A stretch of DNA of 64,000 nucleotides, from the NCBI RefSeq assembly GCF_013391085.1, contig NZ_CP058334.1, positions 2,294,001 through 2,358,000 of the forward strand, in the 5' to 3' direction. Made by a program: the position numbers and the translations under genes. The DNA is from Natronomonas halophila. Lineage in GTDB: Archaea; Halobacteriota; Halobacteria; Halobacteriales; Haloarculaceae. Shown here piece after piece: positions 55,688 through 62,925 of the stretch; within the stretch, counting starts at the first letter, position 1; the number at the start of each line of letters is the position of its first letter. The notes under the pieces are model-generated. The model ran no database searches, was not told the origin of the DNA, and saw only the letters and a program-made list of their open reading frames with translations.

Positions 55688-55707
55688 TTGATTGAATGTT
55701 CAATCAA
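55688..55707. promoter_or_regulatory. 20-bp palindromic TetR operator
   Basis: TTGATTGAATGTTCAATCAA is a perfect 9-2-9 palindrome. It lies between the divergent RND operon and the TetR gene, just upstream of the latter's start, which is the classical arrangement for an autoregulated TetR repressor. A TATA-like TGTTATACCGG (55660-55671) serving the RND operon is close by. Confidence 0.7.
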
Positions 55708-56324: not shown

Positions 56325-56384
56325 CCGACGTTGGCAACTGAGTTGCCCACAACCGTCATGCCGGGGGCGCCTGTATCCGAACTG

Positions 56385-57236
56385 ATGACGACCGACGAGG
56401 AGCTTCGGGTCGCGGCCGACGCCCTGGAGGAGTCGGTACTGGTCGTCGGCGTCGGCGAGGCCGGCGAGGCGGCCGCCAGAGCGGTCGCCGACCGCGACGT
56501 GCCGGCGACCGACGACGCCGCGACGCCCGACGCCGTCGTCTACGCGGTCGACGGTTCGGCTCCCGACGCCCTCGACCTCCCGGACGTAATCGAGGGCGTG
56601 CCCGTCAGCGTTGCCATCGTAACCCTTCCGGGACGCCCTGCGTCCGGGGAACGCGCTTTCCTCGGCGCGCTTGCCGACCGCGTCGGCACCGTCGTCGTCG
56701 CGCCGAAGCACGGCCCCGACGCCCTCGCCGATGCCGTTGCCGTGTTCGTCTCCATCGTCCGCGACTCGGGGTTCGTCAATATCGACCTCGCGGACGCGCG
56801 GACGCTTCTGGCAGACGTCGACCGGGCGGCTCTCGGCATCGGTACCAGCGAGGAGGGCTCGCCCGAGGCGGCCGTCGCCGTGGGCTTTGCCTCGCTGCCG
56901 GCCGGCATCGAAACCGACCCAGCCAGCGGCGTCCTCGTCGACCTGCTCGGCGGCCCCGAAATGAGCGTCGAGGACGTCAGTGACGCGGTGACGGCCGTCC
57001 GCGGGCGGGTCGGTCCCGACGCCCACGTCATCTGGGGCGGGGCCGTCGACCCGACCTTGGGGGACGCCGTTCGGGTCCGTCTCGTCGTCGCCGGGGTCGG
57101 CTCTTCTCGCGTGACCGCGGGCGACCCCTGTCCGCGGTGCGGGTCGCCGCTGTCGGCCTATACGCTCGATTCCACGGCGACTGTCTCCTGCGATAACTGT
57201 GGGTTCGCCGGGGTCTCCGCGAGGCTACGGGACTGA
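56385..57236 (+). CDS. degenerate FtsZ-like protein with C-terminal zinc ribbon
   Basis: The 283-aa protein aligns by eye to FtsZ1 of this window over most of its length. VLVVGVGEAGEAA (18-30) matches the start of the FtsZ fold, SGFVNIDLADARTLL (128-142) matches the FtsZ1 [14 protein letters not shown], and VLVDLLGGPEMSVEDVSDAV (183-202) and HVIWGGAVDPTLGD match the FtsZ C-terminal domain. The GTP-binding GGGTGTG loop is missing, so no GTPase activity is expected. A zinc ribbon follows (CPRC 249-252, CDNC 269-272). Start at 56385 is the best fit; TTG 56331 and ATG 56358 are alternatives. Confidence 0.72.
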   Translation: MTTDEELRVAADALEESVLVVGVGEAGEAAARAVADRDVPATDDAATPDAVVYAVDGSAPDALDLPDVIEGVPVSVAIVTLPGRPASGERAFLGALADRVGTVVVAPKHGPDALADAVAVFVSIVRDSGFVNIDLADARTLLADVDRAALGIGTSEEGSPEAAVAVGFASLPAGIETDPASGVLVDLLGGPEMSVEDVSDAVTAVRGRVGPDAHVIWGGAVDPTLGDAVRVRLVVAGVGSSRVTAGDPCPRCGSPLSAYTLDSTATVSCDNCGFAGVSARLRD

Positions 57237-61749: not shown

Positions 61750-62925
61750 TTATTCGACGTAGTCGATATTGTCGCCGCCGTCCTGTACGGCGCGTTCCTG
61801 CTCGGCCTCGCTCTTGCCGTAAATCTGCGGGCTCTCGACGCCGGTGACGACGATCATCGTCTCCATCTTGCCGTCGAACTCGGGGTTGACCGAGGCACCC
61901 CAGATGATGCGGGCGTCGGGGTCGATGCGGTCGTAGATTTCCTCGACGACGCCCTCGGCTTCCTCGATGGACATGTCGGGGCCGCCGACGACGTTGACGA
62001 GCGCGCTGTTGGCGCCGTCGAACTCGACGTCGAGCAGCGGCGAGCGGAGCGCGGAGCGAATCGAGTCCTGGGCCTTGTTCTCCGAATCGCTCTCGCCGAG
62101 ACCGATCATGGCGACGCCGCCGTTCTCCATGATGGTCTTCACGTCGGCGAAGTCGACGTTGACCAGCCCGGGCTTGGTAATCAGTTCGGTCATGCCCTTG
62201 ACCGAGCGCATCAGGACGCGGTCACAGATCTTGAAGGCGTCCTGCAGGGGCATGTTCGGCGCGTAATCCAGTAGGCGGTCGTTCGGGATGACGATGACGG
62301 TGTCGGCGACCGCACGGAGGCGTTCGAGGCCCGCGTCGGCGTTGGCGCGGCGACGTTCGCCTTCGGCGGTAAACGGAATCGTCACGATGGCGATGGTTAG
62401 CGCACCGGCGTCCTGTGCGGCCTGGGCGACGACGGGCGCGGAACCGGTGCCGGTGCCACCGCCGAGGCCGGCGGTGACGAAGACCATATCGGAGTCGTCG
62501 ATGGACTGATTGATGTCGTCGATATTCTCCTGGGCAGCCTCCTCGCCGATTTTCGGGACGGAGCCGGCCCCACGGCCGCCGGTTCGCTGGCGGCCGATGA
62601 GGATCTTCTCGTCGGCTTCGACCTCGGTTGCGAGGTGCTGGGCGTCGGTGTTCGCGGCGACGAGTTTCGCCCCGTGGATGCCGGCCTCGGCCATCCGGGT
62701 GACGGTGTTGCCGCCGGCGCCGCCACAGCCGACGACGGTGATTTTCGTCTCGAGATCTTTGACGACCTCGGCGAGTTCCTCGTCGGTCATGGTGCCTGAC
62801 CCTTTTACGTCCTGGTCGGCGGCGGTGCCGCCGTCTGTGGCGTTGCCGTTCGCCGCGGACGCTGGCGCCTCGCTGTCCCCATCCTCTTCAGCTTCGTCGA
62901 TAGCGTCCTCGATAATCGAGTCCAT
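61750..62925 (-). CDS. ftsZ1: cell division protein FtsZ1
   Basis: The 391-aa protein has an acidic N-terminal extension, the GTP-binding [60 protein letters not shown] and a C-terminal domain [20 protein letters not shown]. It forms the division ring. A TATA-like GATACTTTAAG (62952-62962) is about 27 nt upstream. It is next to secE and spt5, as usual in haloarchaea. Confidence 0.97.

Follow-up and report, generated by a model that had tools for sequence, protein, structure and literature searches.

A haloarchaeal FtsZ paralogue with a zinc ribbon keeps the T7 catalytic loop and has lost the GTP-binding loops

The Paralogue Gene and Its Surroundings

The stretch of DNA analyzed here (64,000 nucleotides, referred to as the window) contains an open reading frame of 283 amino acids at 56385..57236 on the + strand. 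On the basis of the reading frame, the Pfam search, the AlphaFold2 model and hhalign, its product was assigned as a degenerate FtsZ paralogue. The start codon is ATG, and the homologue alignment favours this ATG at 56385 over a TTG at 56331. The genome also has a canonical FtsZ1 with an intact GTP loop, encoded at 61753..62925 on the - strand. The two proteins have the N-terminal segment TDEEL...VVG in common and are 30% identical over residues 74-243.

The paralogue begins with an N-terminal helix, strand S1 and helix H1 (residues 1-38; 56385..56498, +), where TTDEEL...VLVVGVGEAG resembles the TDEEL... segment of FtsZ1. In the T1 region, family-wide invariance is limited to V20 and G22. The nucleotide-binding half that follows (residues 39-110; 56499..56714, +) is pared down to remnants of S4, S5, H5 and S6. 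The T7 catalytic loop and the start of H8 (GFVNIDLADARTLLAD, residues 129-144) are encoded at 56769..56816 (+) and include the invariant N132, D134, D137 and T140. An FtsZ_C domain (PF12327) was detected by Pfam at residues 148-238 (56826..57098, +) with 51.7 bits (cut-off, 27; E 1e-13). Within this domain, the alignment places IWG at the start of strand S9 (residues 216-218; 57030..57038, +), and this motif is invariant in FtsZ1 and across the 21-member family alignment. A zinc ribbon, CPRC-x16-CxxC (residues 246-276; 57120..57212, +), was recognized at the C-terminus from the sequence and from the model of a Halorubrum member.

A preliminary description of the locus had proposed that the FtsZ-like C-terminal domain is preserved, and both segments on which it relied, VLVDLLGGPEMSVEDVSDAV and HVIWGGAVDP, are present. 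The reported loss of the GGGTGTG loop was confirmed: the loop is absent from the protein, and no match to the Tubulin/FtsZ GTPase domain (PF00091) was obtained for the paralogue in the Pfam search. The NCBIfam FtsZ model TIGR00065 scored 57.1 bits, over residues 112-242 only, and thus stayed below its curated cut-off of 295.2 bits. When the PDB was searched with phmmer, FtsZ was the sole match for the FtsZ part, the best being that of M. jannaschii (E 3e-18). PF13809 (FtsZl1/Tubulin_2) was not among the Pfam matches up to E 10, a search that a weak hit could escape.

Two kinds of conserved or symmetrical sequence were observed in front of the gene. A perfect palindrome, GGCAACTGAGTTGCC, lies at 56333-56347 between the stop codon of a TetR gene and the ATG of the paralogue (0.07 expected at up to two mismatches in the whole window). 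In addition, a leader, CCAAACCGTCATA, is conserved approximately 24-35 bases before the ATG in loci L032, L031 and L033. The window has the version CAACCGTCATG, and the position is that expected for the promoter of a leaderless gene. Another conserved stretch, AGGTTTGTCG, precedes the ATG in the Halorubrum members.

The TetR gene (55728, +) is divergent from an RND-type exporter/secreted-protein operon (55567 and 54017, -). Between them, at 55688-55707, is the palindrome TTGATTGAA-TG-TTCAATCAA with perfect arms of 9 bp, which is likely, from its sequence, to be the TetR operator. Since TetR faces the exporter operon across this palindrome, it probably controls that operon. A new role for the paralogue beside the aminotransferase and TetR genes had been suggested. 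We rejected such a functional link because the neighbours change between genera and the operator-like palindrome is on the exporter side; that the aminotransferase and TetR genes lie beside the paralogue is incidental. With neighbour genes called by a codon model, the paralogue was found next to MATE and MFS transporters in Natronomonas, a T2SSE ATPase or a methyltransferase in Halorubrum, and GH68/GH32 genes in a further genus (g6). No gene partner constant across genera was found, and no linkage to division genes was seen in the neighbourhood comparison. The distance from the paralogue to the T2SSE ATPase gene and to the gene paired with it ranges from a few hundred bases to a few kb (L034, 4141-8156; L039, 5141-9516; L044, 5189-9624). 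T2SSE-type genes near the paralogue are limited to Halorubrum clade A and one Haloarculaceae MAG.

Fold, Family and Distribution

The window protein was modelled by AlphaFold2 with 16 family sequences (pLDDT 80.6, pTM 0.77), and a Halorubrum member was modelled as well (pLDDT 85.3, pTM 0.81). The best Foldseek hits were FtsZ (E 6e-16). In VIA-align, the window model superposed on M. jannaschii FtsZ (1w5a_B) with Z 22.3 at 3.0 Å over 241 residues, and the Halorubrum member on the same protein (1w5a) with Z 21.1 at 3.4 Å over 241 residues. Furthermore, hhalign aligned the family profile with archaeal FtsZ over the FtsZ core length (E 4e-33). Since two models superpose on complete FtsZ and the profile-profile alignment agrees, the tubulin fold is present. 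According to the models, the two-domain FtsZ fold is intact but pared down by internal deletions in the nucleotide-binding half. The earlier statement that much of the nucleotide-binding domain is lost therefore holds for these deletions, but the whole FtsZ fold is kept and not the C-terminal domain alone.

Full-length relatives were found in 8 of the 20 genomes of Natronomonas, the genus of the window, with the window genome counted. Further members occur in Halorubrum and Halobellus captivus, and the searches showed no copy native to Haloferax volcanii. A profile search of 391 class-level genomes, which answers the earlier call for the distribution in haloarchaea, gave 29 members, in 29 of these genomes, from three families and six genera that include Natronomonas and Halorubrum. 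The members are separated from FtsZ by a gap in profile score (weakest member, 233.6 bits; best FtsZ, 142.4 bits). In an alignment of 20 members, whose identity to the first member goes down to 26%, V20, G22, N132, D134, D137, T140, I216, W217 and G218 are invariant, as are C249, P250, R251, C252, C269, C272 and G273 of the ribbon. In the tree, the family is monophyletic (support 100/99) and stands apart from FtsZ1, FtsZ2 and other FtsZs. The tree does not settle an origin from FtsZ1 or FtsZ2, or the sister group (p-AU 0.49 and 0.21; long stem). No relative was found on the viral contigs searched, and the plasmid search gave partial hits only, mostly annotated ftsZ; horizontal carriage was rejected on these grounds. 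In one member from genus g6 (G389:C1:2644048-2644809), a TGA was reported within the match, yet the frame is open for 323 amino acids.

Lost and Kept Parts of the FtsZ Machinery

In the paralogue, T2, T3, T4 (GGGTGTG), T6, H2, H3 and H6 are missing or unrecognizable. T5 is eroded, and the H6-H7 loop is missing in the family. To count this, a column was taken as FtsZ-invariant when it was the same in at least 14 of 15 archaeal FtsZs, and as kept when it was found in at least 80% of the family members. The T7-H8 segment kept 7 of its 8 FtsZ-invariant columns, the nucleotide-binding half (T1 to H7) kept 3 of 78, and the rest of the C-domain kept 7 of 30. By Fisher's test, T7-H8 differs from the nucleotide-binding half with p=1.7e-7 and from the rest of the C-domain with p=0.0017. 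The 29 unique profile hits were gathered without requiring the T7 motif. All of them carry its N-x-D-x-x-D-x-x-T and none carries GGGTGTG. With GGGTGTG missing from 29/29, close relatives that have the loop, the case named beforehand as refuting, were not found. The T7 loop has been kept almost unchanged while the GTP pocket was lost, which is a new observation.

Selection on the gene was examined in 11 close pairs. Whole-gene dN/dS was below 0.5 in all 11, and the family is under purifying selection. In T7, dN was 0 in 8 of the 11 pairs and did not exceed 0.06 in the others. The N-domain gave dN/dS of 0.45-0.70 in Halorubrum pairs. Similarity to FtsZ1 is highest in T7-H8 (51%; 33% to FtsZ2) and in the H10-S9 turn (50%), compared with 23-39% in other C-domain segments. 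H10, another part of the docking face, resembles FtsZ1 only weakly (27%).

By its T7 catalytic loop, one FtsZ subunit completes the GTPase site of the next. Between S. aureus FtsZ subunits, four longitudinal contacts are made: T7 against H1/H2, H8 against T3, S9 against T5 and H10 against the H6-H7 loop. The water that attacks the GTP of the neighbouring subunit is positioned by D210 of T7, and mutants in N208, D210 and D213 fail to assemble (PMC8936486). On the donor side of this contact, T7, H8, S9 and H10 persist as elements in the paralogue, with near-invariant residues in two of them, T7-H8 and the start of S9. The acceptor side, where another subunit would land, is mostly lost: it lacks H2, T3 and the H6-H7 loop, and its T5 is eroded. 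The T7-substituted S. aureus structures 3wgk and 3wgl and D210N entries were among the PDB structural matches. Since such structures exist and the FtsZ of Nitrosopumilus maritimus, which has no conserved GTP motif, has lost T7 too (PMC3684127), this loop is not needed for the fold.

The CPRC...CDNCG ribbon noted earlier is present, and its four Cys (CxxC...CxxC) are invariant in the 20 aligned members. The summary of the protein as an FtsZ paralogue that lacks the GTP loop and carries a zinc ribbon was correct, and the combination proves to be a family trait. Several Pfam zinc-ribbon models match residues 246-275, all below their cut-offs; the likeness is a weak one to transcription-type ribbons, e.g., Zn_ribbon_TFIIB and DUF7351. 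In the Halorubrum model, the ribbon forms three short strands with confidence mostly of 85-87. The dN/dS of the ribbon is low in several pairs, and one weak relative of it occurs elsewhere in the same genome. A GID motif in the C-terminal tail of archaeal FtsZ binds SepF (PMC8178401); the paralogue ends in the ribbon (...CDNCGFAGVSARLRD) and does not carry this motif. The simplest guess is that the ribbon, standing where the FtsZ tail was, anchors the paralogue to a partner or place.

A Candidate One-Sided Subunit and Its Relation to Known Systems

We give an even chance to the reading that the haloarchaeal pseudo-FtsZ is a one-sided, non-polymerizing subunit docking on the nucleotide face of FtsZ. 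The T7-bearing underside of the paralogue would dock on the exposed GTP face of FtsZ, most likely FtsZ1, at a filament end. Since the docked paralogue could not be built upon, the filament would stop there, and the paralogue would act as an end cap or nucleator and possibly as a GTPase activator of the terminal FtsZ subunit. The zinc ribbon that replaces the FtsZ tail would link the paralogue to a location or partner. It is possible, if somewhat doubtful, that the protein, free of nucleotide and retaining only the donor half of the protofilament interface, is a dedicated terminal subunit on the GTP face of FtsZ1 filaments, where it would provide the last GTP with its catalytic Asp and be held in place by the ribbon. 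The role is deduced from conservation, and the sequence cannot tell cap, nucleator, GTPase activator and sequestration apart. The earlier idea that the paralogue may serve FtsZ filaments as a cap, sensor or regulator fits the near-invariant T7 loop, which makes it more specific. In bacterial FtsZ, the nucleotide-bearing face is the minus end (PMC11938149). If this polarity holds, the GTP face would be the minus end, and a binder there would be expected to nucleate or stabilize filaments, not to inhibit them. The lack of a conserved neighbour, the patchy distribution (29/391), the weak likeness of H10 to FtsZ1 (27%) and a tree that does not tie the family to either FtsZ1 or FtsZ2 count against the docking model, and T7 might have been kept for another ligand.

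Repurposing independent of FtsZ, with the FtsZ fold as a scaffold for a ribbon protein binding to nucleic acid or to another protein, seems rather unlikely. T7 and S9 would then be kept for a new ligand (e.g., a cation) or for folding. The invariant ribbon with its low dN/dS in several pairs, its weak resemblance to Zn_ribbon_TFIIB and DUF7351, and the unlinked division genes speak for such a protein. However, the residues kept are the catalytic ones of FtsZ, the fold does not depend on the T7 side chains (3wgk/3wgl, D210N entries), and the GTP-blind FtsZ of N. maritimus lost T7.

Sequestration of monomers would use the same docking geometry as the one-sided subunit: the paralogue, as a hetero-dimer poison, would bind free FtsZ-GTP stoichiometrically and bar its entry into filaments, a SulA-like result reached by the opposite face. 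According to modelling, a binder of the N-terminal face would inhibit only in this way and would otherwise nucleate or stabilize (PMC11938149). However, near-equimolar protein would be needed, and we regard sequestration as quite improbable. A decaying gene without function is hardly credible and was rejected. Although the N-domain evolves fast and the presence is patchy, the dN/dS below 0.5 in all 11 pairs, the zero or near-zero dN of T7, the intact frames in three families and the invariant T7 and Cys residues are against decay.

The one-sided subunit has to be compared with known proteins. With archaeal FtsZ1 (TIGR00065; PF00091 and PF12327), the paralogue has in common the fold, the TDEEL...VVG segment, T7 and FtsZ_C. 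In contrast to FtsZ1, it lacks the GTP-binding loops, approximately 90 residues are deleted, and the ribbon replaces the C-terminal tail. The FtsZ of N. maritimus (Nmar_1262) is likewise an archaeal homologue without the conserved GTP-binding motif, but it is also without the T7 loop (NVDFAD), whereas the paralogue family keeps exactly T7 (PMC3684127). The paralogue is therefore a pseudo-FtsZ whose pattern of loss differs from that of the known GTP-blind FtsZ. FtsZ-like 1/2 and "non-canonical tubulin-superfamily" proteins are also divergent members of the superfamily. In the accessible parts of these reports, the FtsZ-like families are described with a conserved nucleotide-binding core, unlike the paralogue, and the combination of kept T7, lost GTP binding and a ribbon does not appear (PMC2875224, PMC9856176). 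A survey of the archaeal tubulin superfamily places one N. pharaonis protein among the "non-canonical" ones (PMC9856176), and this protein may belong to the paralogue family. No description of the family, or of a haloarchaeal non-canonical FtsZ of such a type, was found in the open-licence literature, which is weak evidence.

The paralogue is a natural separation-of-function experiment, in which GTP binding is lost and the trans-acting catalytic loop is kept. It makes it possible to ask if T7 docking by itself, with no nucleotide on the docking subunit, is enough for capping, nucleation or activation of an FtsZ filament. An FtsZ-like region within a regulator of Z-ring assembly is known from chloroplast ARC3, which is eukaryotic and has a different architecture (MORN repeats). 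Inhibition of Z-ring assembly has been described for ARC3 (PMC13335998). In Haloferax volcanii, an FtsZ1-positioning factor and the membrane anchor of FtsZ1 were concluded to be unknown (PMC8187382). If the reading as a terminal subunit on FtsZ1 is true, the paralogue would be an archaeal counterpart of gamma-tubulin or capping proteins in role, not in geometry. MciZ, SulA and MinC are not known to be FtsZ homologues. Their proposed action is likewise at the filament end or subunit interface, and they bind the underside of FtsZ (C-terminal face, H10/S9, "plus end") (PMC11938149). In contrast, the paralogue has such an underside of its own, and its target would be the opposite face, which bears the nucleotide. 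It predicts that minus-end regulators exist, whereas the inhibitors described reportedly act mainly on the other face (PMC11938149).
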